A stretch of DNA of 64,000 nt from Synechococcus sp. RSCCF101. Its GTDB lineage: Bacteria; Cyanobacteriota; Cyanobacteriia; PCC-6307; Cyanobiaceae. The translations under genes and the position numbers were made by a program. The stretch lies in the NCBI RefSeq assembly GCF_008807075.1, contig NZ_CP035632.1, positions 2,046,001 through 2,110,000 on the forward strand. The letters run 5' to 3'. Under the pieces are notes generated by a model. That model searched no databases, was not told where the DNA came from, and saw nothing but the letters and a program-made list of their open reading frames with translations. Shown piece after piece: positions 198 to 40,426 of the stretch. Position 1 is the first letter of the stretch. Each line of letters begins with the position of its first letter.

Positions 198-302
198 TCC
201 CGCCAAGCTGAGCCAGCAGGCCGACACCCCCACCGGCGCTCGAACGGTTCGCTCCAGCCGTTTTGCCCTCATGATGGGGCGCTGAAGGCCCGGAGGACCG
301 TC

Positions 303-665: not shown

Positions 666-700
666 AGTCCACGCCAGGTTCCCGCCGCTCCCCCGCTTCG

Positions 701-1831: not shown

Positions 1832-1845
1832 GGGGCTGACCAACC

Positions 1846-4800: not shown

Positions 4801-5130
4801 CTGATCGTGGAGCTGGCCGAGCAGCGCGTCAGCCGCGGCGAAGCACCCGCTCAGGCCGCCCAGGAAGCCGCCTCGTCGCGGCTGCGGCCGATCCTGATGA
4901 CCGCGATCGCCTCGCTCGCCGGCTTCTTCCCGCTAGTGGTCGCCACCAGCGCCGGCGCGGCATTTCAGCAGTCGATCGGCACGGTGATCTTCGGAGGCGT
5001 TCTGGTGGCGACCCTGCTGTCGCTGATCGTGGTGCCGGCCTTCTACGTGGCGATCAAGGGCGTCGAGCGGCGCCTGTTCAGGGGGCCAGCACCGCAGCCC
5101 CCAGAACCCCCGCAAATGCCAGCAACGTGA
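1846..5130 (+). CDS. RND multidrug efflux inner-membrane transporter (AcrB/HAE1 family)
   Basis: A 1094-residue proton-driven exporter, somewhat longer than AcrB (about 1050). The first membrane helix follows FIKRPVLTTV, the family signature. Two large periplasmic loops alternate with two bundles of membrane helices. The proton-relay aspartate pair is present in GLVVDDAIVVVEAV (about residue 410), and the partner lysine in LIGLAAKNGILIVE (about residue 980). A glycine-rich hydrophobic insertion around residues 510-560, between the two halves, probably accounts for the extra length. It is paired with the fusion protein upstream. The C terminus is Pro-rich and its coding end overlaps a small gene on the other strand. 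The substrate cannot be read from sequence. Confidence 0.95.
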   Translation: MSLSDTFIKRPVLTTVCSILIVVAGLISLPLLPVENLPQIAPPTVNVSANFAGGSAETVEQAVTIPLEEAINGVPGADYITSQSSGSGQSSITVTFDEGTDINIDQVNVLNLVNQANPQLPETVRSTGVSVTQSNPSFLAVYQVVADGNRYTQEFLNGLVQLNLLYPLERVKGIQAPINPWGGGVPSFNLYLDPKKLASFSLTAGDVINALGEQNVVVAAGSVGGPPSLPQQAFTYPIEIRGYLSSVEEFNDVILGRTPDGNTIRVRDVGSAQFGINSYFLKGIDLAGNVAIGVPVQQTFGSNAIDVATAAEAVIDEFRRTVPPGVKVIKVFDQTQFIRSSIEGVVDALGLAILLVVLILFLFLQDWRTTVIPGLAIPISLVGSFAFVLVFGFSLNQLTMLGLVLAVGLVVDDAIVVVEAVAANLEKGMPPRQAALSCMGELIGALVATSLVLMTVFLPVAAYPGSIGIIYRQFALTVAFAILISTFNALTFSPMMGGLILKGRSEGQEIAPSGPVWPVLGALVGLAAGHFLGGGFWFVAGAVLGAVVGSQLTPIFHRFNLAFGRLERFYSRFVVRMIQWRRWVLVALAAGLVITILGFRASPQGFIPNTDQGFGFGFWQLRNGASLEQTYQTGLKIQRILAEEEDVDAVFLAPGYSFTGPATNQGAAFLGLKPLDERRGKEHSAEAVFGRLNKRFAEELPTAFAAFGNPPAVPGFSPQGGFYYQFFDKSGTLDLDTFGQLASEYVNAARQTGKFQPIYDQFVLAPEFEISIDRDILGALDVDYAEAMNSIGALAGSAYSGLTYQDNQVRQVYVQATAENRDTLSDITSYYVKDRSGNLVAASLFMSVKVVDAPTSILHYNLARSIQIQGDAAPGVTSDEAYGTLDQLVRKLNLNSIGTAFTGLTRLQLASGSAAVVIFALGILVVYLVLSAQYESYITPITILMTVPLAMLGALLFLGLRGISLDIFGQVGLLTLIGLAAKNGILIVELAEQRVSRGEAPAQAAQEAASSRLRPILMTAIASLAGFFPLVVATSAGAAFQQSIGTVIFGGVLVATLLSLIVVPAFYVAIKGVERRLFRGPAPQPPEPPQMPAT

Positions 5131-5251
5131 TCACCCCGATCAGCGACATCTTGAATTCGTGCCGGTCGATCGCCTGTTTCACCGCGCCGTCGAGCTCCTC
5201 CTCCATGCGTTGGATCGCCTGCTGGCGTGAGCGGTCGGAGCTGGGATCCAT
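5078..5251 (-). CDS. Small single-pass membrane protein, hypothetical
   Basis: A 57-residue protein with a charged N-terminal helix rich in Glu, Arg and Gln (RMEEELDGAVKQAIDRHEF) followed by one hydrophobic helix at about residues 36-54. The start is the ATG at 5251, 15 bases from the divergent hydrolase start at 5267. Its last 53 bases overlap antisense to the end of the RND pump gene. The charged-helix plus tail-anchor layout looks like a real protein and not a random frame, but no family is recognised. It has no visible link to the pump. Confidence 0.5.
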   Translation of the reverse strand: MDPSSDRSRQQAIQRMEEELDGAVKQAIDRHEFKMSLIGVITLLAFAGVLGAAVLAP

Positions 5252-5266
5252 AGGGAGCGACGGGCG

Positions 5267-6214
5267 ATGAAGCGGTGGCACTGGCGGGATCAGGAGGTGA
5301 GCTGGTCGGTGCTGCCCGATCCCGGCCAGCGGGCGGACACGGACGGCGGCGATGCGGCTGACACCGGTGACCATGCCATGGCCGTGGTGCTGGTGCACGG
5401 CTTCGGGGCCTGCAAGGAGCACTGGCGCCACAACCAGCCGGTGCTCGGCTCGCTCCATCGCTGCTACGCCATCGATCTGGTGGGGTTCGGCGCCAGCAGC
5501 AAGCCCCGCTCCCGACTCGCCGGCGAGCCCGAAGTGCCGGGCGATTTCCGCTACGGGCTGGAGGTGTGGGCCGAGCAGGTGAGCGCCTTCTGCCGCGAGG
5601 TGGTGAGCGGTCCGGTGACCCTGGTGGGCAACTCGATCGGCGGGGTGGTGGTGCTCCGGGCGGCCCAGATGCTCGCCGGCGACCCCCAGGCTCCCTGCCG
5701 CCGTGTGGTGCTGGTGGATGCTGCCCAGCGCGCCATGGACGACAAGCGCCTGCAGGAGATGCCGCTGCCGGTCCGCGCGATCCGTCCTCTGCTGCGGGGC
5801 CTGGTGAGCCAGCGCTGGCTCACCGAGCGGCTGTTCCGCTGGTTCGCCAGGCCGGCCCTGATCCGCCGGGTGCTGCTGATGGCCTACCCGAGCGGCGCCA
5901 ACGTGGATGACGCCCTGGTGGAGCTGATCCACCGGGCCACCCGCGATGCGGGAGCGCCGGAATCGTTCCGGGGCTTCATCAACCTCTTTGACGATCACCT
6001 GGCCCCGCAGCTGCTGGCGGATCTGCAGGTGCCCGTGCACATGATCTGGGGCGAGGCGGATCCCTGGGAGCCGGTGGCGGTGAGCCGGGACTGGCAGCGC
6101 TTCGCCTGCGTGCGCAGCTTCGAAGCCCTGCCCGGCCTGGGCCACTGTCCGCACGATGAGGCCCCGGAGCAGGTGAACCCGCTGCTCCTGAGGGCTCTGA
6201 CAGCCAGCGACTGA
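5267..6214 (+). CDS. Alpha/beta hydrolase, cyanobacterial/plastid pheophytinase-like family
   Basis: A 315-residue alpha/beta hydrolase. The oxyanion-hole motif VLVHGFGACKEHW (about residues 42-54), the nucleophile elbow GNSIGG (Ser near 124), a late acid residue in WGEADPWEP and the catalytic His in GLGHCPHDE are all present in family order. The closest general resemblance is to the cyanobacterial and plant group that includes chlorophyll dephytylase and pheophytinase, but the substrate is not determinable. The stop codon TGA at 6212 is followed directly by the ATG of the MFS gene, so the two are probably translated from one message. A lid domain lies between the Ser and Asp motifs. Confidence 0.85.
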   Translation: MKRWHWRDQEVSWSVLPDPGQRADTDGGDAADTGDHAMAVVLVHGFGACKEHWRHNQPVLGSLHRCYAIDLVGFGASSKPRSRLAGEPEVPGDFRYGLEVWAEQVSAFCREVVSGPVTLVGNSIGGVVVLRAAQMLAGDPQAPCRRVVLVDAAQRAMDDKRLQEMPLPVRAIRPLLRGLVSQRWLTERLFRWFARPALIRRVLLMAYPSGANVDDALVELIHRATRDAGAPESFRGFINLFDDHLAPQLLADLQVPVHMIWGEADPWEPVAVSRDWQRFACVRSFEALPGLGHCPHDEAPEQVNPLLLRALTASD

Positions 6215-7471
6215 ATGACCTCTTCAGGAAATGGGGTGCTGAGCAGAGCATGGGGCGCGGCAAAGCATCCACTGGGTGTGGTGTTCTCCACCCTGCTGCT
6301 GGACAAGCTCGGGGAGAACATCATCTTCCCGCTGCTGCCGTTCATCCTGGCGGCTTACAGCCCGGACGGCCTCACCCTCGGACTCCTGGCAGCCACGGCG
6401 ACCCTCTTCGCTGCCGTGGCCAATCCTGTGGTGGGCGCCATCAGTGATCAGATCGGTCGCCGCCCCACGGTGATCCTCTGTGTGCTGATCAACACTGCCG
6501 GTCTGGCACTCTTCGGCTTCGCGGGCTCCCTCGGACTGATTTTCGTGGCCCGGGCCATCGGGGGCATCGGCAGCGGCACCCAGAGCACAGCGCAGGCCTA
6601 CATCGTGGACATCTCCACGCCAGCCACTCGGGCGCGCAATTTCGGCATCAGTGGAGCCGCCTTCGGCCTGGGGGCCATCATCGGGCCCGCCCTCGGCGGG
6701 CTTTTCGCAGGCTGGTCCCCTTCGTTTCCGGTCCGCCTGGCCGCGGCTCTCAGCCTGCTGAATCTGGTTCAGGCCATGGCGTTCCTGCCGGAATCGCTCC
6801 CCATGGATCAGAGACAGCCGCTCTCCTGGCAACGGCTGAATTCAGCCCATCAGGTGCTGCGCTTGTTCCGGCTGCCGGATGTGAATGTCGTCACAATCGC
6901 ATTCGTTCTGTTCAACATGGCCTTCAGCGGCTTCACCAGCCTTCTGGTGCTGTTTCTGAAGCAGCGGCTGGGCTGGAGCGCTGCAGAAGCAGGAGGCATC
7001 TTTGTGGTGGTGGGCATCACAGTCACCGCTGTTCAGGTCGGTCTGATCGGTCCTTTGGTGAAACGTCACGGCGAAAAGAGGCTGAGCCGAAGTGGGCTCT
7101 TCTGGATGGCCGCCGGAATCCTTCTGGTCGGGTGCAGCGTGCTGCTGCCAGCACCGTTGGTGGCCTCCAGCGTGGTTCTGGCCTCGATCGCCCTGGCGAT
7201 CGGGGCGGCTCTGGTGATCCCAAACACCCGGAGCCTGGTGGCAGGGCTTGTTCCCACCTCCGACCAGGGGGTGACCCTCGGCAGCCTGAGTTCCGTGACC
7301 GCCCTGGCCAGCAGCGCCGGTCCGATCCTTGCGGGGCTGATCTACGACAAAAGCAATCTGGGTTGTTTCGTTTCCCAGGCCGTCTTGTGCCTGGCCGCCG
7401 CCTGGGTGATCAGTGCCCTTCGCTGGCCTCGGCATCCAGTCGGCGAGCCAGAAGGCGCCGCAGCTCCGTGA
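6215..7471 (+). CDS. MFS transporter, TetA-like drug/proton antiporter family
   Basis: A 418-residue major facilitator protein with about 12 hydrophobic helices. The loop 2-3 signature is visible as GAISDQIGRRPTV (about residues 75-87), and an antiporter-type helix 5 glycine-rich stretch as GLGAIIGPALGGLF. The order resembles TetA and the tetracycline-type H+ antiporters, but nothing identifies a drug. It starts immediately after the hydrolase stop. Its last 62 bases overlap antisense to the end of the first Rieske gene. Its base composition is less GC-rich than that of the efflux genes upstream, like the Rieske genes that follow. Confidence 0.88.
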   Translation: MTSSGNGVLSRAWGAAKHPLGVVFSTLLLDKLGENIIFPLLPFILAAYSPDGLTLGLLAATATLFAAVANPVVGAISDQIGRRPTVILCVLINTAGLALFGFAGSLGLIFVARAIGGIGSGTQSTAQAYIVDISTPATRARNFGISGAAFGLGAIIGPALGGLFAGWSPSFPVRLAAALSLLNLVQAMAFLPESLPMDQRQPLSWQRLNSAHQVLRLFRLPDVNVVTIAFVLFNMAFSGFTSLLVLFLKQRLGWSAAEAGGIFVVVGITVTAVQVGLIGPLVKRHGEKRLSRSGLFWMAAGILLVGCSVLLPAPLVASSVVLASIALAIGAALVIPNTRSLVAGLVPTSDQGVTLGSLSSVTALASSAGPILAGLIYDKSNLGCFVSQAVLCLAAAWVISALRWPRHPVGEPEGAAAP

Positions 7472-8453
7472 GGATGCGGTCGGAACCCACCAGCATCTCT
7501 CCCGAGCCTCGCAGCGTTACATAACGAGGACGCTGGGTTTCGAGCACGGCCTGATCCTCTCTGGAAATGGTCTGACCCGTTCGGCTCGTGACACGATCGA
7601 ACCAGCTGCTTAACAGAGGCGTGGAGAGAAGCATGTTTCGGGCATTCACCAGCCGCGAACGTGTTCTCAGTGGCCCCTCGGGAACAAAAGCCTGAAGGGC
7701 AGCCAGGGTCACACGACCGAAGGTCACTAGTGAAACCACCAGATTGGGATAGACGTACCAGTACTCCTTGTAGATGGTGTCCGGGCTGGCCTTGAGCACA
7801 AGCCTGGCCAGTCCGCTGATCTTCTGGAGCTTGATCGGCATCCGGCCGTAGATCGTGTCGTCTGAGAGAACGCAGCTGTAGGAAGGCAGAGTCAGGTCCA
7901 CATCCGGATCCCGCCGCCCGATCGAGGCGCCATGCACGAAGGGCGCATGCGTTGGATCAATGGCGTTCTCCAGAGTGCGGGTGAAGTGGGTGTCATACAG
8001 CCAGTCCTCATCCGCATCCGGCCGGATCTGGAGAGCATCGAGCTGAGGCAATGTCGGCGGGGGGACCCGCAAGCCGGGATGATCCGGATCGCCGTGCCAC
8101 ATCCAGAGCAGGCCGTAGTGCTCGCGAACCGGGTAGCTAGCCACCCGCGCGGCCGCTGGAGGCGGGTGATCCGGCTCGGCGGGGATGTGACGGCAGCGGC
8201 CGGATGTGTCGTACTGCCAGCCGTGGTACGGGCAGACCAAGTGCTCGCCTGACCTCCAGCCAAGGGCCAGCGAGCAGGCGCGGTGGGCGCAGCGAGCAGC
8301 GAGCACATGGGGGGTGCCAGCCTCATCCCGGAAAGCCAGCAACTCCTGCTCGAGGAACTGAAAGCCCAGCGGCCGACTGGTGACATCACTGGAGCAGAGC
8401 ACGGCATACCAGGTCTGCCTCGGGCAAGGAGGAGGGGCGGTCGGTGTTGTCAT
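7410..8453 (-). CDS. Rieske non-heme iron oxygenase (PAO/Tic55-like), copy 1
   Basis: A 347-residue Rieske oxygenase alpha subunit. The [2Fe-2S] ligands are C-x-H in RCAHRAC and C-x2-H in LVCPYHGW (about residues 52-75). The mononuclear iron site is DPTHAPFVH (Asp-x2-His-x4-His, about residues 165-173). The spacing and the later DQAVLETQRP motif match the pheophorbide a oxygenase / Tic55 / chlorophyllide oxygenase branch, which hydroxylates or opens tetrapyrroles in plants and cyanobacteria. There is no membrane segment or C-terminal CxxC as in the plastid enzymes. It starts at the ATG at 8453, whose ATGA overlaps the stop of copy 2, so it is last in the minus-strand operon. The substrate is unknown. 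Confidence 0.9.
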   Translation of the reverse strand: MTTPTAPPPCPRQTWYAVLCSSDVTSRPLGFQFLEQELLAFRDEAGTPHVLAARCAHRACSLALGWRSGEHLVCPYHGWQYDTSGRCRHIPAEPDHPPPAAARVASYPVREHYGLLWMWHGDPDHPGLRVPPPTLPQLDALQIRPDADEDWLYDTHFTRTLENAIDPTHAPFVHGASIGRRDPDVDLTLPSYSCVLSDDTIYGRMPIKLQKISGLARLVLKASPDTIYKEYWYVYPNLVVSLVTFGRVTLAALQAFVPEGPLRTRSRLVNARNMLLSTPLLSSWFDRVTSRTGQTISREDQAVLETQRPRYVTLRGSGEMLVGSDRILTELRRLLARRLDAEASEGH

Positions 8454-9451
8454 GACGCCAGGGTTGCCATAGCCGCCACACGTTTGCGATAGGCCAGGAT
8501 CAGATGGTCGGAAGCGAGAAGCAGTTCCGGTGCATGCTGTCCCCAGGACGGTCCGGGTGGCTGAGCTTCAACAACAGCTCGGTCTTCCTCGTAGGTCGTC
8601 ACCGTGTTGCGAATGGAGTTGCCATCGGCCCAGGACTGGGGAAGGAAGTTGCGAAGACCGATCCATTTCGTGCGGGTGAATCCCTCACTCTCAGGAATAT
8701 TACTTGCGAAATAGATGTATTGGAATCCTCGCCAGTTAAAATCCAGATGAATGCGGTTGACTGCCGGCAGATAACTGGTCAAGGTTGAACTGGAGAAGGG
8801 TCGGTCCTTGCGCAGAATGTATTTGAGCAGACCCATACGCTGCGGTGGCTTGACCTGCTGATGAGTCCAGACCCGGTCAGACTCCTCATGGATGGTCAGA
8901 GGCCCGACCGCAGCATCATTGCGGTTCGGAAAGAACGGCTTGTGCACGAACGGGGCATGGGATGTATCCAGACCGGCCTCGACAACACGACTGAAATGAG
9001 CATTCCAGGTGTATTCCCCACGCACGACCCTCCACCCTGGCTGGTCATACTCCGGCAAGGGCGGGATGAGATCCGCATCCGCCAACGAGGGCTCGCCGGG
9101 AAACAGCCACAGAAATCCGCTGGCCTGCTGAACCGGCAACGGATGGAGACGCGCCCTGGCCGGGATGGCTGTGCCCGGATCGTCAGCGGGAATCAGGCGA
9201 CAGGCGCCATCGGCGCCATAGGTCCAACCGTGATACGGGCAGCGGAGGCAACCGTTCTCCACCCAACCCGAAGCGAAGCTGGCCGCTCGATGGGCGCAGA
9301 CATCATGAAACGCGCGGCATCGGCCTTGCTCATCCCGGAACAGGACGTAGCGCTCACCCAGAAGCCGAACGACAAGCGGGCCGGGATCCACCTCCCCCTC
9401 ATGGGCGACGGCATACCAGTGGTTGGGCAGTGAGGGGGCCGATGGAGTCAT
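8450..9451 (-). CDS. Rieske non-heme iron oxygenase (PAO/Tic55-like), copy 2
   Basis: A 333-residue paralogue of the flanking Rieske genes. The cluster ligands lie in VCAHRAAS and RCPYHGWTY (about residues 50-73). The catalytic iron motif is LDTSHAPFVH (about residues 155-164). The PAO-type DRAVVEAQPPG motif is near residue 292. The start ATG at 9451 overlaps the stop of copy 3 (ATGA) and its own stop overlaps the start of copy 1, which is tight translational coupling. The middle of the gene (about 8640-8760) is clearly poorer in GC than the surrounding genome, which suggests acquisition or relaxed codon use. The product is predicted to be cytoplasmic and soluble. The electron donor is not encoded here. 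Confidence 0.9.
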   Translation of the reverse strand: MTPSAPSLPNHWYAVAHEGEVDPGPLVVRLLGERYVLFRDEQGRCRAFHDVCAHRAASFASGWVENGCLRCPYHGWTYGADGACRLIPADDPGTAIPARARLHPLPVQQASGFLWLFPGEPSLADADLIPPLPEYDQPGWRVVRGEYTWNAHFSRVVEAGLDTSHAPFVHKPFFPNRNDAAVGPLTIHEESDRVWTHQQVKPPQRMGLLKYILRKDRPFSSSTLTSYLPAVNRIHLDFNWRGFQYIYFASNIPESEGFTRTKWIGLRNFLPQSWADGNSIRNTVTTYEEDRAVVEAQPPGPSWGQHAPELLLASDHLILAYRKRVAAMATLAS

Positions 9452-10512
9452 GGACGAAGGGCGGCTGACGAACGCTCCAGTTCGCGACGGAGCATCTTGC
9501 GATATTCCAGCGACAACAGATCGGAAGCAACATGACTCTCGCAGCGGAAGTCAAGCGGCACGGCGTAGGGACGCTGGCTCTGAACGACACCATGATCCTC
9601 CTCATAGATGCTGCGAGAAATCGCGATCGACTTCTCTTCGGCACCCGGCAGCCTGAAGCCGGGACGACGGGGCGAATACTTGATCCAGCGTCCCACCGAT
9701 GATGTGGCCGTGAGCGGCACACTGGCATGCACGAACACGACATGCATCAGGTCACCGACCCGGGTATCCACAATGTTGAGATTCGGGAAATACAGGCTGA
9801 ACGTGGTTTCGGCAACCAACTCGGCTGGCCTGCCGCGCAGGCGCTGCAGCACAGACAACCAGCGCGGAACAGGAAGCTCGTAGCGAACCGATGCACGCAC
9901 ATGGCGGTCCTGCTTCACCAGGCCGTAAGGCTCCGACAGAGGTGACGCCTGGGTGGCGAACGTGCTGTTATGCACCCAATAGGCATGGGAGTTATCAAGG
10001 GTTGATTCCACAACCCTGGTGAAGTGGGTGTTCCAGGGGAACTCCGCTGAGACCGATCGCCAGGTCTCCGCTGGATACGTGGGCAGATCCGGCAGCCGCT
10101 CCGGCTCGGATGGGAGGCGCCCCCACCAGAGCCAGATGAAGCCAAGGTGATCACACACCGGGTTGGCTGACACCAGATCACAGTGGTTGGGATGAACCGT
10201 CCCCGGTGGATGGGCCGGGATCTCGCGGCAGTGACCATCTCCATCGAACAGCCAGCCGTGAAAGGGGCAACGCAGGCGTCCGTTCTCCAATCGGCCCTCG
10301 CTCAGGCGAGCGCCGCGATGGGGGCAGCGGTCCGCGAACAGCCTTGGTCGACCGTCCTCATCGCGGAACAGCACATAGGACCTACCCGCAAAGACAAGGG
10401 GCAACGGCTCCTCGGTCAGGGCGCTGGAGCGTTCGACCGCATACCAGACTTCAGTTGCGAGATGGGCAATCGCCGCGCCCTCCTGCGGTCCTGTCGGGTG
10501 ATCAGGCAGCAT
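9448..10512 (-). CDS. Rieske non-heme iron oxygenase (PAO/Tic55-like), copy 3
   Basis: About 354 residues from the ATG at 10512, which I prefer to the GTG at 10533 because it lies 5 bases after the stop of the cyclic-nucleotide-binding gene; the GTG would overlap that gene. The Rieske ligands are in RCPHRGARL and RCPFHGWLF, the mononuclear iron motif is LDNSHAYWVH, and the late motif is DHGVVQSQRPY. It is the first of the three oxygenases in the transcript. Copy 3 has CPH and CPFH where copies 1 and 2 have CAH and CPYH, so the three are diverged paralogues rather than a recent tandem duplication. The reaction is unknown; tetrapyrrole or other ring oxygenation is an inference from the family. 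Confidence 0.88.
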   Translation of the reverse strand: MLPDHPTGPQEGAAIAHLATEVWYAVERSSALTEEPLPLVFAGRSYVLFRDEDGRPRLFADRCPHRGARLSEGRLENGRLRCPFHGWLFDGDGHCREIPAHPPGTVHPNHCDLVSANPVCDHLGFIWLWWGRLPSEPERLPDLPTYPAETWRSVSAEFPWNTHFTRVVESTLDNSHAYWVHNSTFATQASPLSEPYGLVKQDRHVRASVRYELPVPRWLSVLQRLRGRPAELVAETTFSLYFPNLNIVDTRVGDLMHVVFVHASVPLTATSSVGRWIKYSPRRPGFRLPGAEEKSIAISRSIYEEDHGVVQSQRPYAVPLDFRCESHVASDLLSLEYRKMLRRELERSSAALRP

Positions 10513-10517
10513 CGGAC

Positions 10518-11045
10518 TCAGCGGTGGAACCACCAGTACACCCCGGCGGCGAGGAATCCCAGCACAACGGCCGAGGCCACCATCACCACCTTGGCGGTGG
10601 GGTTGGCGAACACACGGGCCTCGTGATCAACCACGGCCTGACGGATGTGATCGAGCATCTCCTCCCGCAGCCGCGTGAGATCCGATTCCAGGGTGTTGCC
10701 GCTGTAGAGCTCGCGCAGGTGGTCGAACACCGAGCGACCGATCACCAGGGAGCGGCCGGGGTGATCGAAGAGCACATCCATCAACTCATCGCGCTCCAGC
10801 ACGATCATCAGGGTGGGCTCGGACGCCCGGGCGGAATGCTGACGGGGCCTTCCGTCGATCAGCTCCACCTCGCCGAACACGCCGCCGCTGTGAACGCTGG
10901 CATCCACGCCCTCACCGGTCTCCGGGTAATCGGTGATCAGATCCACCCCGCCGCGCTTCACCAGGAAGAGGGCATGGCTGGGATCCCCGGCCCGGTACAC
11001 GGTGGCTCCGGCTTCGACCTCCTGGGCGCGCATGGCGGAACGCAC
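10518..11045 (-). CDS. Cyclic-nucleotide-binding-domain protein with C-terminal membrane anchor
   Basis: About 175 residues from a GTG at 11045 (an ATG at 11033 is an alternative). Residues about 10-115 form a CRP-type sensor domain: AGDPSHALFLVKRGGVDLI, then the phosphate-binding-cassette region FGEVELIDGRPRQHSARA, which keeps the FGE and the Pro-Arg but has Gln where CRP has Ser after the Arg. There is no helix-turn-helix. A helix with basic and acidic heptads and then one membrane segment (VVMVASAVVLGFLAAGVYWW) ends the protein. It should be a tail-anchored sensor and not a transcription factor. It lies 24 bases after the MinD-like gene and 5 bases before the Rieske genes. Confidence 0.82.
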   Translation of the reverse strand: MRSAMRAQEVEAGATVYRAGDPSHALFLVKRGGVDLITDYPETGEGVDASVHSGGVFGEVELIDGRPRQHSARASEPTLMIVLERDELMDVLFDHPGRSLVIGRSVFDHLRELYSGNTLESDLTRLREEMLDHIRQAVVDHEARVFANPTAKVVMVASAVVLGFLAAGVYWWFHR

Positions 11046-11069
11046 GGTGGGGCAAGCGTAAGGGAGCTG

Positions 11070-11822
11070 TCAGCGGCCGGCGGCCATGAGTTCTGCGGCC
11101 AGCTCCCGCAGCTGACGGCTCCAGGGCAGATCTGGATGGCAGGAGAGGGCCAGATCATTGCTGGCCAGGGTGAAGAGGTCCTGGCTGAGGGGCAGCACGG
11201 CGGCCACGGGGATGCCGTAGCTGCGCGCCACCCGATCCCTGACCTCCCCGGCATCGAAGGCATCCGGCACCTTGTTGACCACCATGCGCATATCCGGCAC
11301 AAAGAGGCGACGGCACACCTCCACCGCCACGGCCGTGCCCTGGTAGTCCTGTCGATCGGGGCGCATCACCATCAGCAGCACATCGGCGATGGCCGCGGTG
11401 AGCAGGGTGTCCTCGCTGACGCCCGGGTGGGTGTCCATCACCAGCTCATCGAGGTGCAAAGCCTCGGAGAGGGAGGAGAAGCCATCGTTGAGGCGTTCCA
11501 CCTCGTAGCCCTCGCGCAGGATTGAGGCGATCGCATCGGGGTCGAGGGAGGAGGGCACGACCCAGAGCCGTCCCGGGCCGCCGCGGCCGGTGTCCACCGC
11601 GGCCGCCTCCATCGAACAGCGGCCCATCAGGGCGTCGTTGAGGAAGGGGCCGGGGTGGTCCGCCGATAGGTTGAAGAGCGCGTGCACACCGGGGGATTGG
11701 AGATCCGCATCCAGCACGGCCACCCGGCGACCGCTGCTGGCGAGCGCCAGGGCCAGGTTGGCGCTGATGTTCGATTTCCCCGTTCCGCCCCGGAAGGAAT
11801 GGGCGGCGATGATGCGGGTCAC
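11070..11822 (-). CDS. MinD/ParA-family P-loop ATPase
   Basis: A 250-residue ATPase starting at GTG 11822. It has a deviant Walker A, FRGGTGKSN (residues 10-18), in which the usual signature Lys before GG is Arg. The Walker A prime stretch VAVLDADLQSPGVHALF and the DTHPGVSEDTL switch region are present, as is a MinD-like MRPDRQDYQGT segment. Proteins of this class position complexes or scaffold membranes through ATP-dependent dimerisation. No C-terminal amphipathic MinD helix is obvious and no minC or minE is nearby. It heads the minus-strand operon containing the cyclic-nucleotide protein and the three Rieske oxygenases, and diverges 44 bases from a HAMP sensor gene. It is therefore unlikely to be the division-site MinD. 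Confidence 0.85.
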   Translation of the reverse strand: MTRIIAAHSFRGGTGKSNISANLALALASSGRRVAVLDADLQSPGVHALFNLSADHPGPFLNDALMGRCSMEAAAVDTGRGGPGRLWVVPSSLDPDAIASILREGYEVERLNDGFSSLSEALHLDELVMDTHPGVSEDTLLTAAIADVLLMVMRPDRQDYQGTAVAVEVCRRLFVPDMRMVVNKVPDAFDAGEVRDRVARSYGIPVAAVLPLSQDLFTLASNDLALSCHPDLPWSRQLRELAAELMAAGR

Positions 11823-11866
11823 AGACCTGCCGCCTCGCGCGCCAGGAGTGTGCCACGAGAGCCGTC

Positions 11867-13333
11867 ATGAAACTGGCGCAGCGGCTGCTTCTGCTGGGCC
11901 TGATGACCCCGCTGGCCGCCATCGGTGTGGGCACCGTGCTCACCATCCAGAGCACCAGCCGCATCACCCGTGAAGGGGAGGCGGTGCTGAGCGAGGAGTT
12001 CGACGCCCAGAACCGGCTCAGCCTGGTGCGCTCCTACGAGCTGATGCAGGCGCTGGCGGACTTCACGTCAGGCATGGCGCGCCACCAGACCCGCCGCTTC
12101 GAGGAGACGTTCGACGCCCGGGGCTTCCGGCTCGAGCGCGATGACTCCGGGCGCACCCAGCTGCTGCTGCAGGGCCTGCCGCTGGAGGGGGAGGGCCTGA
12201 GCGCGGCACTGGAACCGCTCCTGCAGCAGGTGCATTCCTTCCCCGGCGTGCGGGCCTCGTTCTGGCTCCTCGATCGGGAGCCGGAAGGGTTCCGGCAGGT
12301 GGCCGCCATCGACGGTACCGGCCGGGCGGTGCGGGAAGCAGCCGCGGATGCAGCGCAGCGGGCCCAGCTGCTGGCGGTGCACCGGGAGGATCAGCCCGAC
12401 GATCTCGACGCCCGCCGCATCGACGGCACCTGGTACGTGGACCTGGCCACCACGCTGCCGGAGACCGGTGCCGGCAGAGGGGAGCCCGACCGGGCCAGCG
12501 GTGCCCTGGTGATCAGCACCCCCGAAGAGGAGCTGGCCCGGTTTCTCGAGCTGGGAACCCGCGTGTTCCCGAACAACGAGCTGCACACCTTCATCCTCCA
12601 GGAGACCGCCCAGGAGGGGTTCGTCTGCATGAGCGCCAGCGAGCGCGATCGGGTCTTCTGCGATGACCTGATGACGCAGCTCGATGAGGCGGGCCTGCTC
12701 ATCGCCCCCCGGCAGGACGGGAGTGGCGGCCGGCCGCTCCACCCCGACGACATTCAGGGGCTTTCGCTGCACTTCCCGACCGGGCCGGGGGGCAGCGAGG
12801 AGACCTACACCAGTTATGTGGTCCCCGACGCCGACTGGGACTGGCTGGTGGCCGTGGTGGTGCCCGACCGGGAGCTGGCCAGGATCGCCCAGCCGCTGCG
12901 GCAGGCAACGCGACGGGTGCTGATCGGCCACCTGCCGGTGTTCACCCTGCTGCTGATGGCGGCCACGGCAGGAACCGGCTGGTGGCTGGCCCGGAGGATC
13001 CGCCGGCCGCTAACAACGCTGGCGGACTCAACGGCCGCTCTGGCCAGGGGCGAGGTGGTGCCCGAACTGGAGGTGCCCGGCAGCGAGGACGAGATCGACC
13101 AGCTGGTGCGGGGCTTCAATCAGATGGCTGCCGCCGTCGGGCGCAGGGAGGATCTGCTCCGGCGCAGGATCGAGGAATTGCAGGAGTCGCTTGATGTGCA
13201 CGTGGACCGTGCCGGCGTCGACGCCCGCATGGATGAGCTGGATGCCTCCGGGCGGCTCGCCCATCTGGAATCCCGGGCCCGGCAGCTGCGGCGGGCCCGC
13301 TCGGCCCGCCGCCCCGATCAGCAGGCGACGTAG
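11867..13333 (+). CDS. Membrane sensor with large extracytoplasmic domain and HAMP, no output domain
   Basis: A 488-residue protein. The first membrane helix is at about residues 7-27 (RLLLLGLMTPLAAIGVGTVL). An extracytoplasmic region of about 320 residues of PAS/dCache-like character follows. A second helix lies at about 351-374 (PVFTLLLMAATAGTGWWLA), then a HAMP domain (RRIRRPLTTLADSTAALARG through EIDQLVRGFNQMA). The protein ends in a 60-residue coiled coil and a basic tail. There is no histidine kinase, methyl-accepting or cyclase domain. The last 16 bases overlap the sigma factor gene. Its start diverges from the MinD-like ATPase, which suggests the HAMP coiled coil may signal to the ATPase or the cyclic-nucleotide protein. 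Confidence 0.85.
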   Translation: MKLAQRLLLLGLMTPLAAIGVGTVLTIQSTSRITREGEAVLSEEFDAQNRLSLVRSYELMQALADFTSGMARHQTRRFEETFDARGFRLERDDSGRTQLLLQGLPLEGEGLSAALEPLLQQVHSFPGVRASFWLLDREPEGFRQVAAIDGTGRAVREAAADAAQRAQLLAVHREDQPDDLDARRIDGTWYVDLATTLPETGAGRGEPDRASGALVISTPEEELARFLELGTRVFPNNELHTFILQETAQEGFVCMSASERDRVFCDDLMTQLDEAGLLIAPRQDGSGGRPLHPDDIQGLSLHFPTGPGGSEETYTSYVVPDADWDWLVAVVVPDRELARIAQPLRQATRRVLIGHLPVFTLLLMAATAGTGWWLARRIRRPLTTLADSTAALARGEVVPELEVPGSEDEIDQLVRGFNQMAAAVGRREDLLRRRIEELQESLDVHVDRAGVDARMDELDASGRLAHLESRARQLRRARSARRPDQQAT

Positions 13334-14340
13334 TCCTCCACGGCATCGCTGAGACGACGCAGACCCCGCAGGCCATCGCGCTCGAGATTGCGGACCCGGT
13401 CGCGGCTCATGTCGAGAACCCGGCCGATGCCGGTGAGGCTCATCGGCTCCTCCACGTCGATCCCGTACCGCATCTTCAGCACACGGCCCTGCAGGTCCGG
13501 CAGCTGCTCCAGCAGCGCACGCAGGTCCCCCTTCAGGCACTCACCATCCACCTGCTCGCTCAGCAGTTCCCCATCGCCGCTCAGCAGCTCCAGCAGCTCC
13601 GTGTCATCCCCGTCGCCCACCTTCATCTCCAGGCTCACCGGCTGACGCGCACGGCACATCAGCTCCTTCACCTCCTCCTCCGGCAGCTCCACCGACGCCG
13701 CCAGTTCCGTCACCGTCGGCGTCCGGCCCAGCTCCTGGCTCAGCTCACGCTGGCCGCGCTTCAGCTTGTTCAGCGTCTCGGTGATGTGGATCGGCAGCCG
13801 GATCGTGCGGCTCTTCTCCGCAATCGCCCGCGTGATCCCCTGGCGGATCCACCAGTACGCATAGGTGCTGAACTTGTAGCCACGCGTCGGGTCGAACTTC
13901 TCCACGCCACGCACCAGGCCGATCGTTCCCTCCTGGATCAGGTCCAGAAGCTCCATGTTCCGCTTGGTGTACTTCTTCGCCACGCTCACCACCAGGCGCA
14001 GATTCGCCGACACCATCCGCTCCTTGGCGCGGCGGCCCGCATGCAGCCGCCGCCGCAGCATCGGCACCGACAGCCCCGCCTCACGGGCCAGACGCTCCCG
14101 TGTCGGCTTCTCGCCGCTGCGCATCTCCAGCTCCTGCTCCATCTCCTCCAGCGCCATCAGCTCCTGCACCTGACGGCCCAGCGTGATCTCCTGCTCGTGC
14201 GACAGCAGCGGCACGCGGCCGATGTCCCGCAGGTAGCTCCGCACCAGATCACCATCCAGAGGCTGCACGCTGCGGGCCGCGGAACCCACGCTCCGCACGC
14301 TCTTCCGTTCGTTCGCTGCAGGGGCTGCTGTGACGACCAT
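13318..14340 (-). CDS. Group 2 RNA polymerase sigma factor (RpoD-like, SigB/SigC/SigD type)
   Basis: About 340 residues from the ATG at 14340. It lacks region 1.1. Region 1.2 begins near [21 protein letters not shown]. Region 2 has [13 protein letters not shown] and the -10 recognition helix in [19 protein letters not shown]. Region 3 follows [12 protein letters not shown], and region 4 has the helix-turn-helix [26 protein letters not shown]. The size and absence of 1.1 place it among the non-essential group 2 sigma factors that cyanobacteria use for stress, light and nitrogen responses. I cannot say which of SigB to SigE. Two copies of GTGTGAAGC lie 22 bases apart just upstream. Its 3' end overlaps the HAMP sensor gene. 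Confidence 0.93.
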
Positions 14341-14357
14341 TGCCGAAACCTGTCGAT

Positions 14358-14388
14358 GTGTGAAGCCTAACCTGAAGAAGTGTGAAGC
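14358..14388. promoter_or_regulatory. Direct repeat upstream of the sigma factor gene
   Basis: GTGTGAAGC occurs at 14358-14366 and again at 14380-14388. The spacing is 22 bases, about two helical turns, and the repeats lie 18-48 bases before the sigma factor start codon. This arrangement suits a dimeric regulator or a phased promoter element. No further copy was noticed nearby. The role is inferred from position only. Confidence 0.3.
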
Positions 14389-14485
14389 TCCTCTCAGCAA
14401 AGCCGGATTGAGTAAAAACACTCAGCCGTGTCCCGACGGTCCTGCTTAAGAGGCTCCGTTGGCATCGCCCTCCTCAGGGCCGTCC

Positions 14486-15919
14486 TCAGGACACCGTCCA
14501 CCACTGGAGCAGCCAGCCCGCGGTCTGCAGGTAGATGAACACGCCCGCCACGTCGGTGGCGGTGGTGATGAAGGGAGCGGACATCAGGGCCGGATCGAGC
14601 CCCATCCGATCGAAGAGCAGGGGCAGGGCCGCCCCGGCCGTGGCCGCCAGGATCGTGATCGCCATCAGGCTGATGCCGACGGCCATGCCCACCAATGGAC
14701 CATCGCCGCGCCACCAGGCGAAGGGAACGACCAGCACGAGCATCAGCAGGCCCAGCAGCGCTCCAGCCGCCGCCTCCCGCCAGATGGCGCGGAACTTGCC
14801 GAGGGCCTGGATGCGCTGGGTGCTCAGGCCCCGGATCACCACCGTGGAGCTCTGGGCACCAACGTTGCCTCCGGTGCCGATCAGCAGGGGAATGAACGCT
14901 GCCAGAACCACCACCTTCTGGAGCACGTCCTCCCTCAGCGCGATCACCTCGGAGGTGAAGCCGTTGGCCACCACCAGCACGGAGAGCCAGACCACCCGGC
15001 GGCGGGCCACCGTAAACAGGTTGCTCTGGAAGTAGTCGTCCTCGTCGCCGGCCTGAACGGCGCCGGCCGCGTAGAGGTCGCGTGTGGCCTCCTGCTCGAT
15101 CACGTCGATCACGTCATCGACGGTGACGATTCCCACCAGTCGCTGCTCCCGGTCCACCACCGGCAGAGCGAGGAAGTCGTAGCGCTGGATGCTTCGGGCC
15201 ACCTCCTCCTGATCGGTGTCGGTGCTGACGCTCACCACCTCCCGGGTCATCACGTCCCCGATCCGGGCCTCCGGGTCGGCCATCACCAGATCGCGCAGGG
15301 AGATGATCCCGGTCAGATGGCGCTCGCCATCGGTCACGTACAGGCTGTACACCGTCTCGGTGTCGGCCGCCCGGCGACGCACGATCGTCAGCGCCTGATC
15401 GGCACTGTGGAATTCCTTCAGATCGATGAACTCGGTCGTCATCAGACGACCGGCGGTTCCCGACTCGTATCCCAGCAACTGGGCGGTCACACGGCGCTCG
15501 GCCGGGCTGAGCTCCATCAGCAGACGGCGCACCACCTTGGCCGGGAGTTCATCGAACAGCCGCACCCGGTCATCGGGTGACATCTCCTCCACCAGTTCCA
15601 GCACCTCGCCGGAGCGCAACCGTTCCAGCAGGCCCTGCTGCACGGTCGCGTCGAGATACTCGTAGACCTCGATCGCCTCGTCCTTGGCCAGCAGCCGGAA
15701 GGCGAGGGCCTGGAGGGTCTCGGGCAGGCCTCCGATCGCCTCGGCGATGTCCACAGGCTGGACCGGCTGCAGCAGCAGCTTGACCGCGTCATAGTTGCCG
15801 GCCCGCAGCATGGCCCGCAGCTGCTGGGTCACCAGTTCGGTGAGCTGCGTGCCGGTGACCGTGGCGGCGGCTGTGCCGGTCGCCGTCGAGCCGGAGACAC
15901 TCCGGGTGGCCTCATCCAT
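14486..15919 (-). CDS. mgtE: Magnesium transporter MgtE
   Basis: A 477-residue MgtE, close to the usual 450. Residues about 30-150 are the MgtE N domain of helical repeats (VDIAEAIGGLPETLQALAFRLL, then MSPDDRVRLFDELP). Two CBS domains follow (GERHLTGIISLRDLVMADPE and EQRLVGIVTVDDVIDVIEQE). The C-terminal five-helix channel contains the family's GTGGNVGAQSSTVVIRGL segment and the ATDVAGVFIYLQTA helix. The protein imports Mg2+, with the cytosolic domains closing the pore when Mg2+ is high. It starts at the ATG at 15919 with GGGGAGGGA before it. It diverges from a glutathione peroxidase gene, and the shared region carries CTGAATC elements. Confidence 0.95.
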   Translation of the reverse strand: MDEATRSVSGSTATGTAAATVTGTQLTELVTQQLRAMLRAGNYDAVKLLLQPVQPVDIAEAIGGLPETLQALAFRLLAKDEAIEVYEYLDATVQQGLLERLRSGEVLELVEEMSPDDRVRLFDELPAKVVRRLLMELSPAERRVTAQLLGYESGTAGRLMTTEFIDLKEFHSADQALTIVRRRAADTETVYSLYVTDGERHLTGIISLRDLVMADPEARIGDVMTREVVSVSTDTDQEEVARSIQRYDFLALPVVDREQRLVGIVTVDDVIDVIEQEATRDLYAAGAVQAGDEDDYFQSNLFTVARRRVVWLSVLVVANGFTSEVIALREDVLQKVVVLAAFIPLLIGTGGNVGAQSSTVVIRGLSTQRIQALGKFRAIWREAAAGALLGLLMLVLVVPFAWWRGDGPLVGMAVGISLMAITILAATAGAALPLLFDRMGLDPALMSAPFITTATDVAGVFIYLQTAGWLLQWWTVS

Positions 15920-15987
15920 CGGCGTCCCTCCCCGGCTGAATCACTCTAGGTCGACCTCCGCGGCGCCAGGGACGCCTCTCTTACGGT

Positions 15988-16004
15988 CTGAATCTGTGAT
16001 TCAG
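15988..16004. promoter_or_regulatory. Palindrome CTGAATC-TGT-GATTCAG in the mgtE / glutathione peroxidase divergent region
   Basis: A perfect 7-base inverted repeat with a 3-base spacer lies 27-43 bases upstream of the peroxidase start. A third CTGAATC copy is at 15936-15942, close to the mgtE start. This is the usual shape of a dimeric repressor or activator site serving two divergent promoters. The regulator is unknown. Confidence 0.4.
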
Positions 16005-16030
16005 GGCGCAGCCCTGCTCCGCTTGAGACC

Positions 16031-16516
16031 ATGACAGTGAATGTGAGCCAGGTGGTGGTGCGGACCCCCTCCGGCGCCGATCGATCCCTCGGCGATTACG
16101 CCGGCAAGGTGCTCCTGATCGTGAATGTGGCCAGCCGCTGCGGCTTCACCCGCCAGTACGCCGGCCTGCAGGCCCTGCAGGACAAATACGGCTCCCAGGG
16201 CCTGGTGGTGCTGGGATTCCCCTGCAACGACTTCGGCGCCCAGGAGCCTGGAACGCTGCCCGAGATCCAGCAGTTCTGCTCCACCACCTACGGCGCCAGC
16301 TTCGAGCTGTTCGACAAGGTGCACGCCAGCGGCAGCACGACCGAGCCTTACACCACCCTCACCAAGGTGGAGCCGGCCGGCGATGTGGCCTGGAACTTCG
16401 AGAAGTTCCTGGTGGGGCGCGACGGCACGGTGCAGGGCCGCTTCAAGAGCGGTGTGGAGCCGGACAGCGCCGAGCTGACCGCGGCGATCGAGGCCGCTCT
16501 GGCCGCCGCCGCCTAA
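16031..16516 (+). CDS. Glutathione peroxidase family thiol peroxidase
   Basis: A 161-residue glutathione peroxidase-fold enzyme that reduces hydroperoxides. The peroxidatic Cys is in NVASRCGFT (about residue 37). The GFPCNDFGAQEPG motif supplies the second conserved Cys and the catalytic Gln, and WNFEKFLVGRDG supplies the Trp and Asn of the tetrad. The non-seleno Cys form is usual in cyanobacteria, where these enzymes often use NADPH or thioredoxin for reduction instead of glutathione. There is no signal peptide, so it should be cytosolic. Its stop overlaps by 4 bases the end of the convergent crcB gene. Confidence 0.93.
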   Translation: MTVNVSQVVVRTPSGADRSLGDYAGKVLLIVNVASRCGFTRQYAGLQALQDKYGSQGLVVLGFPCNDFGAQEPGTLPEIQQFCSTTYGASFELFDKVHASGSTTEPYTTLTKVEPAGDVAWNFEKFLVGRDGTVQGRFKSGVEPDSAELTAAIEAALAAAA

Positions 16517-16890
16517 CCGCTGCGCCCGGGCCGGCACAGCCGCCGGCCCAGGCTGAACCCCCCCGCGGCAGCACCCAGCCCGAGCAGGAACGACCAGCCG
16601 ATCAACGACAGGGCGTCCCCCGCCCGGCCCGCCAGCAGGAGATCGAGGCACTCCACCATCCAGCCGCTGAAGGTGGTGACCGATCCGCAGAACCCGACCC
16701 CCAGCAGCAACTGGCGCCGCGGTCGCAGCGGAAGTCCCGCGAGGAGCCCGAGCAGCAGCGATCCGAGCGTGTTCACGATCAGGTCGTTGCCCACCTGCCA
16801 GCGCAGCAGGGCACCAGGAACCGCCCCGAGAGCCACCAGCAGCAGTTCCGCGGCCTCGGTGCGCAGAGAGGGAGGTGGAGAGGCGCTCAT
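16513..16890 (-). CDS. crcB: Fluoride ion channel CrcB/FluC, subunit 2 of a pair
   Basis: About 125 residues from the ATG at 16890, a small four-helix membrane protein. The FluC core is visible: GAVPGALLRWQVG near the start, the N-T-L-G of VNTLGSLLLGLL, and GFCGSVTTFSGWMVE with the break-helix and phenylalanine track. These channels export toxic fluoride and act as dual-topology dimers. Here two non-identical copies lie in tandem 7 bases apart, as in other bacteria that use a heterodimeric FluC. No fluoride riboswitch was recognised upstream. Confidence 0.9.
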   Translation of the reverse strand: MSASPPPSLRTEAAELLLVALGAVPGALLRWQVGNDLIVNTLGSLLLGLLAGLPLRPRRQLLLGVGFCGSVTTFSGWMVECLDLLLAGRAGDALSLIGWSFLLGLGAAAGGFSLGRRLCRPGRSG

Positions 16891-16897
16891 CGTCCGT

Positions 16898-17281
16898 TCA
16901 ACCGCGTCCCAGCGTGTAACCGAGCGCCGCAGCCAGCAGGCCGGCCAGCACCGAGCCCAGCGCCAGCACAAGGGCCGGCCACCAATGGCGCTCCCGCAGG
17001 GTCGCCAGCAGCTCCACCATGAACGTGGAGAAGGTGCTCAGGCTGCCGAAGAACCCTGTGGCCACCAGCAGCTGCAGGCGGCGCGGCGCCCCGGCGACCC
17101 CGTCCGGATCGCAGGTCCCCTGCACAGCGAGCACCAGTCCGAGGGCGAAGGCGGCCGCCACATTCACCAGGAAGGTGCCCCAGTGCTTGCGCGGCACCAT
17201 GGGCTGGAAATGGTTCACCAGCCTCAATCGCAGCCAGGCGCCGGGGATGGCACCAACCGCCACCAGAATGGTGTCATTCAT
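16898..17281 (-). CDS. crcB: Fluoride ion channel CrcB/FluC, subunit 1 of a pair
   Basis: About 127 residues from the ATG at 17281. It shows the same fold as its neighbour: [16 protein letters not shown], the conserved Asn in [13 protein letters not shown], and [17 protein letters not shown]. Four membrane helices are visible. The two copies share the family motifs but are strongly diverged, which fits subunits of a heterodimer with opposite orientation. Its start ATG overlaps the stop of the SH3-like gene upstream (ATGA). Confidence 0.9.
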
Positions 17282-17544
17282 GGGGCACCGAGGGCGATCC
17301 AGCCCCGCCTCGGACGGCCAGCAGCGGCAGCCACCTCCACCTGAAGCCATCGGAAGCCGGAGGCGCAGCGCCAGCGCCGCACGGGGATCAGTGGCGTCCC
17401 CGATGGCAGCGCCACCAGGGCCGGGGCCGACTGGGCGGGCGCGCAACGCAGGTCGCCACCGGAGACCGCCAGCCAGGGCTCGCGGCGCCGGCGCTGCCGC
17501 ACCTCTCCCTCCCGGGCGGGTGCCCCGCCCGCCGGCAGCGCCAC
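17278..17544 (-). CDS. Small secreted SH3-like domain protein (start uncertain)
   Basis: The frame ends at 17278 in an ATGA overlap with crcB. The C-terminal part ([21 protein letters not shown] through WLQVEV and RRGWIAL) reads like a bacterial SH3 domain. The listed start is a GTG at 17544, but the frame stays open upstream and encodes a very good signal-peptide core ([23 protein letters not shown]). The protein therefore probably begins further upstream, near the end of gyrB, where only a CTG at 17619 is available and no ATG, GTG or TTG. The function is unknown; a periplasmic or cell-wall binding role would be an inference from the SH3 fold. Confidence 0.5.
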
Positions 17545-17615
17545 CGGCAGGCAGAGGGCGGCTCCGAGCAGCAGGGCCCAGCGCAGGCTGCCGAGCGAGG
17601 GGGGAGCGGCGACAG

Positions 17616-19640
<2,025 letters not shown>

Positions 19641-19750
19641 TCAGCCCTGAAGCGGAGCAACGACTCTCCCGTCCCAACTCGTGCCCCCAAGCTACCACCG
19701 CAGCGCCAGACGCGCTCACAGGGGCCTCTGAGGGGAGAATCCTGAAGGGG

Positions 19751-20680
19751 GTGCATCCCCACCTGCTGCCACCCAACGCCGTGAGCACCGATCCGCTGGT
19801 CATCGTTCTGCTCGGGCCCACCGCCGCCGGCAAGAGCGACCTCGCCATCGCGCTGGCCGAAGCCCTCGATCTGGCTGTGCTCTCGGTGGATTCCCGGCAG
19901 GTCTACCGCGGCATGGATGTGGGCACAGCCAAACCCACGCCGGCCCAGCGGGCCCGGGTGCGCCACGAGCTCCTGGATCTGCGCGATCCCGACGACCCCA
20001 TGAGCCTGCACGAGTTCCAGGCGGAGGCCCATGCGGCCATCCGCCTGGAGCATCAGCGCCGCGGCATCGCTCTGCTGGCGGGGGGGAGCGGCCTCTATCT
20101 GAAGGCGCTCACCGACGGCTGGCAGCCCCCGGCCATCCCGGCCCAGCCGTGGCTGCGCCATCAGTTCACCGGTCTGGGGCAGGAGGTGTGCCATGCGCTG
20201 CTGCGCCAGTGCGATCCCCGGGCGGCGGAGCGCATCGCCGCCGCCGACAGCGTGCGCACCCAGCGGGCTCTTGAGGTCCTCTACGGCAGTGGCAGGCCGG
20301 TCTCGGAGCAGCGCAACCGGCGCCCTCCGCCCTGGCGGGTGCTGGAGCTGGGGCTGCTGCCGGCGGATCTGAACCGGCGCATCCGGGAGCGCAGCGCCTC
20401 CCTGTACAGCGGCGGCCTGCTGGAGGAGACGCAGACGCTGATCGATCGCTACGGCGCTGATCTGCCGCTGCTGCGCACGATCGGTTACGGCGAGGCCGTC
20501 GAGCGGATCCGCGGTGGCCTCCGGCCGGAGGAGGCCCTCAGGACGACGATCCGGCGCACGCAGCAGCTGGCCAAGCGCCAGCGCACCTGGTTCCGCCGCC
20601 AGCACAGCCCCACCTGGCTGCCGGCGGGGGAGCCCCCCCTGACAGCCGCGTTGACGGCGATCAGGAGCGTTCTAGGGTGA
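19751..20680 (+). CDS. miaA: tRNA dimethylallyltransferase MiaA
   Basis: A 309-residue prenyltransferase that adds a dimethylallyl group to A37 of tRNAs reading UNN codons. The P-loop is GPTAAGKSDLA (about residues 22-32), followed by DSRQVYRGMDVGTAKPT, the family hallmark. LAGGSGLYLKAL and LLRTIGYGEAVE complete the set. The GTG at 19751 is taken as the start; the next in-frame start is well inside. It is followed by infC after 74 bases on the same strand, which may be one transcript. Confidence 0.95.
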   Translation: MHPHLLPPNAVSTDPLVIVLLGPTAAGKSDLAIALAEALDLAVLSVDSRQVYRGMDVGTAKPTPAQRARVRHELLDLRDPDDPMSLHEFQAEAHAAIRLEHQRRGIALLAGGSGLYLKALTDGWQPPAIPAQPWLRHQFTGLGQEVCHALLRQCDPRAAERIAAADSVRTQRALEVLYGSGRPVSEQRNRRPPPWRVLELGLLPADLNRRIRERSASLYSGGLLEETQTLIDRYGADLPLLRTIGYGEAVERIRGGLRPEEALRTTIRRTQQLAKRQRTWFRRQHSPTWLPAGEPPLTAALTAIRSVLG

Positions 20681-38219: not shown

Positions 38220-38286
38220 AGGCCACACCCGACCGCCCCGGAGCGGCCCATAGCATGCGATGCAACGTCAGACCCCTTTCCCACGC

Positions 38287-38958
38287 GTGATCGACGCCAG
38301 CCGAGTTCACCCCATCGCCAGTTGCTGGATGGGTGAGGCCCCCGTCAGCGGGATGCCCTCCGCGGCGCCAGGGGTGCTGCCGACCGTTGTCGAGCAGTCC
38401 GGCCGCGGCGAGCGCGCCTTCGACATCTACTCGCGCCTGCTGCGCGAGCGGATCATCTTTCTGGGCACCGGCATCGACGACCAGGTGGCCGATGCCCTCG
38501 TGGCCCAGCTGCTGTTCCTCGAGGCGGAGGACCCGGAGAAGGACATCCAGCTCTACGTGAACTCCCCGGGGGGTTCCGTGACGGCCGGCCTGGCCATCTA
38601 CGACACGATGCAGCAGATCGCCCCGGACGTGGTGACCATCTGCTACGGCCTGGCGGCGAGCATGGGCGCCTTCCTGCTTTCGGGAGGCTGCAAGGGCAAG
38701 CGCCTGGCTCTGCCCAGCGCGCGGATCATGATCCACCAGCCCCTCGGCGGCGCCCAGGGACAGGCCGTGGACATCGAGATCCAGGCCAAGGAGATCCTCT
38801 TCCTCAAGGAGACCCTGAACGGACTGCTCTGCGAACACACCGGTCAGCCCATGGAGCGAATCGCGGCCGACACCGACCGCGACTACTTCCTTTCTCCCGC
38901 AGACGCGGTTGAATACGGACTGATTGACCGGGTCCTGACGGACACAACTCCGGTTTGA
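38287..38958 (+). CDS. clpP: ATP-dependent Clp protease proteolytic subunit
   Basis: About 223 residues from a GTG at 38287, chosen because the residues after it (IDASRVHPI, then WMGEAP) look like the start of cyanobacterial ClpP homologues as I remember them. ATGs at 38260 and 38353 are alternatives. The catalytic triad is visible: Ser in [15 protein letters not shown], His in [10 protein letters not shown] and Asp in TDRDYFLS. It forms the tetradecameric protease that works with ClpX, encoded 89 bases downstream. The N-terminal 40 residues include a propeptide-like segment before [13 protein letters not shown]. Confidence 0.93.
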
Positions 38959-39047: not shown

Positions 39048-40426
39048 ATGGCCAAGTTCGACGCCCACCTGAAATGCTCCTTCTGCGGCAAGTCGCAGGA
39101 GCAGGTGCGCAAGCTGATCGCGGGCCCCGGGGTCTACATCTGCGATGAGTGCATCGATCTCTGCAACGAGATCCTCGATGAGGAGCTCGTCGACAGCGCC
39201 ACCGCAACCCGCGCCAGCGCCGAGGCCAGTCGCAAGCCCGCACCCCGCAAATCCGGCAAACCCGCCCCCACACTCGCCTCCATTCCCAAGCCCCAGGCGA
39301 TCAAGAGCTTCCTGGATCAGCAGGTGGTGGGCCAGGACGAAGCCAAGAAGGTCCTTTCGGTCGCGGTCTACAACCACTACAAACGGCTGGCCTGGCAGGC
39401 CGAGCACAGCGATCCGGATTCGGCCGATTCGGGGCGCCATGCCCCGCGCCTGCACAAGTCGAACATCCTTCTGATCGGCCCGACGGGAAGCGGCAAGACG
39501 CTCCTGGCTCAGACCCTGGCCGAGATGCTAGAGGTGCCGTTCGCCGTGGCCGACGCCACGACCCTCACCGAAGCCGGCTATGTGGGCGAGGACGTGGAGA
39601 ACATCCTGCTGCGGCTGCTGCAGAAGGCGGACCTGGATGTGGATCAGGCCCAGAGGGGAATCATCTACATCGATGAGATCGACAAGATCGCCCGCAAGAG
39701 CGAGAACCCGTCCATCACCCGCGATGTGTCCGGCGAGGGCGTGCAACAGGCCCTGCTGAAGATGCTGGAGGGGACCGTGGCCAACGTGCCCCCCAGGGTG
39801 GTCGCAAGCATCCCTACCAGGACTGCATCCAGATCGACACCAGCCAGATCCTCTTCATCTGTGGTGGCGCCTTCATGGGCCTCGATGATGTGGTGCAGCG
39901 CCGCATGGGTCGCAATGCCATCGGCTTCCTGCCGACGGACGGCCGCGGCGGCCGGGCGGCGCGGTCGATGCGCGAGCAGCACGCGGCCACGGTTCTGAGG
40001 CAACTCGAACCGGACGACCTGGTCCGCTACGGCCTGATTCCCGAATTCATCGGCCGCATGCCGGTCACGGCGGTGCTCGATCCCCTGGACTGCCGGGCTC
40101 TGGAATCGATTCTCACCGAGCCCCGCGATGCCCTGGTCAAGCAGTTCCGGACCCTTCTCAGCATGGACAACGTGCAGCTGAGCTTCGAACCGGCCGCCAT
40201 CGAAGCCATCGCCCTCGAGGCACACCGACGCAAGACGGGCGCCCGGGCCCTGCGGGGGATCGTGGAGGAACTGATGCTCGATCTGATGTACGACCTGCCC
40301 TCCTCGAATGAGGCCAGCAGTTTCGTGGTCACCCGGGAGCTGGTCGAGCAGCGCACCCACCGCGCCCAGGTTCTTGAGTACCCCGGCGCAGCCGGTCTCG
40401 ACCACACCCGCAAGGAAACCGCCTGA
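39048..40426 (+). CDS. clpX: ATP-dependent Clp protease ATP-binding subunit ClpX, interrupted by a 1-base frameshift
   Basis: ClpX unfolds tagged proteins and feeds ClpP. The zinc-binding domain has CSFCGKSQ and CDECIDLC. The AAA+ domain has Walker A GPTGSGKT, Walker [12 protein letters not shown] and the [10 protein letters not shown] stretch. Right there, at the C6 run 39789-39794, the frame is lost. The correct sequence resumes in the next frame as [20 protein letters not shown], the pore/sensor region, and continues to [22 protein letters not shown] and a stop at 40426. Adding one C restores a continuous protein of about 459 residues. As given, the first frame ends in 50 unrelated residues at 39998. 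Because ClpX is normally essential in cyanobacteria, a sequencing or assembly error is more likely than a pseudogene. Confidence 0.9.

Follow-up and report, generated by a model that had tools for sequence, protein, structure and literature searches.

The clpX gene of Synechococcus sp. RSCCF101 is interrupted by a single frame break at a run of six cytosines, and this break is very probably a consensus error of sequencing or assembly in an otherwise ordinary, functional gene, because the assembly loses single C or G bases and the gene is intact in relatives. The same two observations support the first-pass annotation, which had considered a consensus error likely. An ordinary cyanobacterial clpX, lying within a clpP–clpX pair, would have had one base dropped from its C run in the assembled sequence, and ClpX is probably synthesised in the organism at its normal full length of about 459 residues, which had been proposed earlier and fits the span 39048–40423. 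Judged from the assembled sequence, the loss at the C6 run itself would be such an error. The window (the whole analysed stretch of 64,000 nucleotides) carries the following features at this locus.

38260–38958, + strand: intact clpP (G000:C1:2084374-2084940; 339.7 bits, above cut-off).
39048–39998, + strand: frame-0 open reading frame of 316 residues with an ATG start at 39048, containing the ClpX zinc finger and the N-terminal AAA+ part up to the C6 run.
39789–39794, + strand: C6 run where clpX changes frame; two relatives, L022 and L031, have one base more here.
39794–40426, + strand: remaining -1-frame part of clpX ([19 protein letters not shown]-terminal small domain), TIGR00382 positions 230–410.

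The clpX start at 39048 lies 89 nt downstream of clpP. The C6 run has GTG on its 5' side and AGG on its 3' side, and the assembled sequence offers no single open frame through the whole of ClpX across it. Past the run, the frame-0 reading frame enters about 200 nt of unrelated, out-of-frame sequence with a stop ending at 39998, and the remaining ClpX is encoded in the -1 frame, closing with a stop codon at 40424–40426, which bears out the first-pass annotation's placement of the break. In NCBIfam, the clpX model TIGR00382 is matched over positions 1–228 by 39048–39791 (371.2 bits, narrowly above the cut-off) and over positions 230–410 of 414 by 39794–40423. Since the match ends at 228 and resumes at 230, the two halves meet at the C6 run and almost nothing is missing. 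No further break was found in either half.

The domains of ClpX stand in the correct order of zinc finger, AAA+ and small domain. The N-terminal C4 zinc finger is present (Pfam PF06689, zf-C4_ClpX, 75.4 bits), the AAA_2 domain is divided between the two halves, and the C-terminal small AAA+ domain is detected too. Upstream of the run are CSFCG and CDECI, which we take to be the zinc finger, followed by GPTGSGKT, GYVGED and IIYIDEIDK, presumably the Walker A motif, the pore loop and the Walker B motif, respectively. Downstream of it, and in the -1 frame only, are [11 protein letters not shown], IGF and TGARALR, so that the IGF ClpP-binding loop, like the small domain, is present and confined to that frame. 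The placement of these motifs and the two TIGR00382 matches agree with the earlier reading that the ClpX motifs are intact on both sides of the run. The gene thus resembles the ClpX of the ClpXP protease (TIGR00382 / NF003745) in its domain order, its position after clpP and the lack of any second copy found, but unlike it has, as assembled, one interruption of its frame at a C run. A search of the entire genome (G000; one contig of 2,984,853 bases, 98.14% complete) returned no second clpX at the level of ClpX, the next matches reaching at most 27.7 bits versus 375.1 and 248.2 bits for the two halves. The first-pass annotation had pointed to the absence of another copy as a matter to consider; a second clpX acting as a backup was accordingly rejected.

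Among 40 genomes searched, this one included, clpX was found above the cut-off in 37 of the 39 relatives, and in all 37 the open frame is unbroken across the site. One of these matches is partial (G022, positions 127–413). The two genomes with no ClpX-level match, G006 and G014, are 83% and 88% complete. At least two relatives (L022 and L031) have GTG, seven C's and an A at the site; most of the others among the relatives listed interrupt the C run with different proline codons. Of the named relatives, the nearest is L037, an uncultured Cyanobium metagenome-assembled genome with 86% identity over the upstream half of clpX. Cyanobium sp. M30B3 is reported to have type I-E cas genes (PMC8382752), but the family of one of these, Cse1 (PF09481), gave no match in the present genome, and the two were not equated. 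Compared with seven relatives, dN/dS is 0.10–0.19 before the run and 0.20–0.31 after it, the latter read in the -1 frame; an eighth relative (L038) was left out of these ranges, its dS being saturated. Among three of the relatives themselves, the values are 0.10–0.17 for the part before the run and 0.15–0.30 for the part after it. By this measure, the downstream half is about as constrained as in the relatives, at the upper end of their range, as is compatible with an error or with a lesion of very recent date.

The ends of the contig provide a built-in test of the type of error that this assembly makes. The terminal 20 kb at the head and at the tail are nearly identical (G000:C1:1-20000, L178, and 2964854-2984853, L194): blastn aligned head positions 17–20000 with the last 20,000 bases over 20,006 columns, opening 27 gaps and showing no mismatch. 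In a MAFFT alignment, the two copies differ at 27 internal places, all of them indels of 1–2 bases and 26 of them in C or G, with the gap in the head copy in 21 cases and in the tail copy in 6. A true duplication would be expected to carry substitutions as well, and the contig ends apparently represent a circular overlap of some 20 kb that was left untrimmed; we infer that they are two readings of the same DNA. With such an overlap, the genes of about 20 kb enter the gene count of this genome twice. A clpP search brought up the same clpP-like pair at either end of the contig, and the clpP gene located there is in two pieces at the head (TIGR00493 positions 12–64 and 67–191) and whole at the tail (positions 12–191). 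Similarly, the head copy has hemW in two pieces, both of which fall inside one open frame of 662 residues in the tail copy.

Homopolymer-length errors are described as the commonest residual error in long-read-only assemblies (PMC8812927). The errors found here are like those of that account in being single-base C/G losses, with no substitutions between the end copies. They are unlike them in that runs of 1–3 bases account for 15 of the 27 overlap differences, and runs of 6 or more for 3, so the errors at the ends are not mainly long-run errors. The overlap differences also crowd near the contig ends, with none between head positions 6502 and 17820. As clpX lies deep inside the contig, the error rate of the ends is not transferable to it.

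Losses of the same kind were found elsewhere in the assembly, in clpP, hemW, ppc and an SBP_bac_11 gene, and those of the contig interior are described here along with one further gene.

L169 near 2035 (G000:C1:1466001-1486000): ppc, split at a C6 run into PEP carboxylase positions 1–446 and 449–897.
L120 near 19514: gene for an SBP_bac_11 solute-binding protein, split at a G6 run, with the same family on both sides.
L129 near 11805: gene with conserved counterparts in cyanobacterial relatives, broken at a C7 run, without a Pfam or NCBIfam match.

The SBP_bac_11 halves cover positions 1–89 (23.5 bits, below the Pfam cut-off of 25, E = 5.3e-5) and 108–227 (37.6 bits). The L129 gene is probably broken in the same way as clpX. 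This is based on a comparison of open-frame lengths only, in which 15 of 17 matching relatives have frames of 349–784 residues versus 250 here; in the other two (G001 and G030) the gene is itself in pieces. Near 9462 in L131, parts resembling GT2 and GT1 glycosyltransferases adjoin each other close to a G7 run. This may be two genes or one broken gene; the domains joined there are two different glycosyltransferase domains. The interior cases besides clpX are therefore few, with two proven by their families, one supported by relatives and one possible. A transposase is also split near 3669 in L161, where the DUF772 and DDE parts are in different frames; this split could be natural. The frames of clpX, ppc, SBP_bac_11 and the L129 gene all shift by -1, as expected from the loss of one base. 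Such shifts are common among the flagged frame changes of both this genome (43 of 51) and a relative used as a control, G023 (15 of 20), so a -1 shift by itself says little.

These changes were flagged by a codon-model frame scan of 864 kb of the genome (the window and 40 further stretches) and of 400 kb of G023. Of 51 changes flagged in the former, 21 were tested, including 19 of the 23 in which the upstream frame reached its stop more than 30 nt further on. The same family was found on both sides in five of the 21 (clpX, SBP, ppc, clpP and hemW), while in 13 the two sides matched different families or at least one side matched none; L129, L131 and L161 make up the other three. Ten changes taken up in a later scan had differing families or none on the two sides, and one from the first scan (L126) had a family on neither side. 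In G023, 11 of the 20 flagged changes had a late stop; the scan covered both sides of ten of these and a single side of the eleventh. None of the ten had one family on both sides, two of them having no family on one side. The E-value cut-off was 0.001 for the scans of clpX, SBP, L129, ppc, clpP, hemW and L161 and 0.0001 for G023 and the ten later changes; the five family-proven cases also pass 0.0001.

The two genomes are separated only by this check for one family on both sides, and not by the count of changes near long C/G runs: a C/G run of at least 6 lies within about 15 nt of a flagged change in 6 of 51 cases here (864 kb) versus 1 of 20 in G023 (400 kb). C/G runs of 7 or more number 94 in 864 kb versus 32 in 400 kb of the control. 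Long C/G runs are thus not depleted, which speaks against a general shortening and for sporadic losses. This result and the many overlap differences in short runs slightly reduce the confidence in an error at clpX.

The break could alternatively be a real and recent one-base deletion, which would leave the strain or the sampled population without ClpX function. C runs are natural slippage sites, and the genome yielded no second clpX. Nevertheless, a real deletion is very unlikely, given that the two halves have remained otherwise unbroken, that dN/dS after the run is near that among the relatives, and that ppc, clpP and hemW are broken likewise in the same assembly, with clpP and hemW open in the opposite end copy. 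The first-pass annotation had also relied on ClpX being normally essential, which was too strong, as clpX mutants have been published for two cyanobacteria and count in favour of a deletion. An insertion mutant of clpX in Synechocystis 6803 is viable with slower growth, the main text of that report being silent on segregation (PMC9560874), and deletion of ClpX in S. elongatus leads to cell-division defects (PMC7966870). Hence, cyanobacteria do not seem to depend strictly on ClpX, a real loss is conceivable, and essentiality alone could not decide the matter; it is the assembly evidence that carries the argument for a consensus error.

Full-length ClpX might also be produced from the sequence as assembled, by -1 ribosomal slippage at CCC CCC AGG or by polymerase slippage on the C run. 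The sequence itself allows a CCC in the P site to re-pair on C6 one base further back, but the heptamer, G CCC CCC, is not a slippery X XXY YYZ. In pseudoknot-free folding, the 100 nt after the run are no more stable than shuffled sequences (z = 0.51, with 133 of 200 shuffles folding at least as well), the shifted architecture occurs in none of the 37 relatives with clpX, and the same mechanism would have to operate in the unrelated genes that are broken at C/G runs. Recoding of this kind is therefore extremely improbable. Phase variation by slippage at the clpX C run is likewise unlikely, the run being short and clpX a housekeeping gene. All in all, there is very little chance that the split of clpX is genuine in this picocyanobacterium and that the cell either does without ClpX or obtains it through -1 slippage at CCC CCC AGG.

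The finding is, in the first place, a warning about data quality: without the reads, clpX, ppc or similar genes should not be annotated as lost in this genome. A genuine split would leave the frame-0 product without the ClpP-binding loop and the small domain, and would make the organism an unusual case of ClpX being lost or recoded in nature. Most likely, the split of clpX is not a real biological feature.
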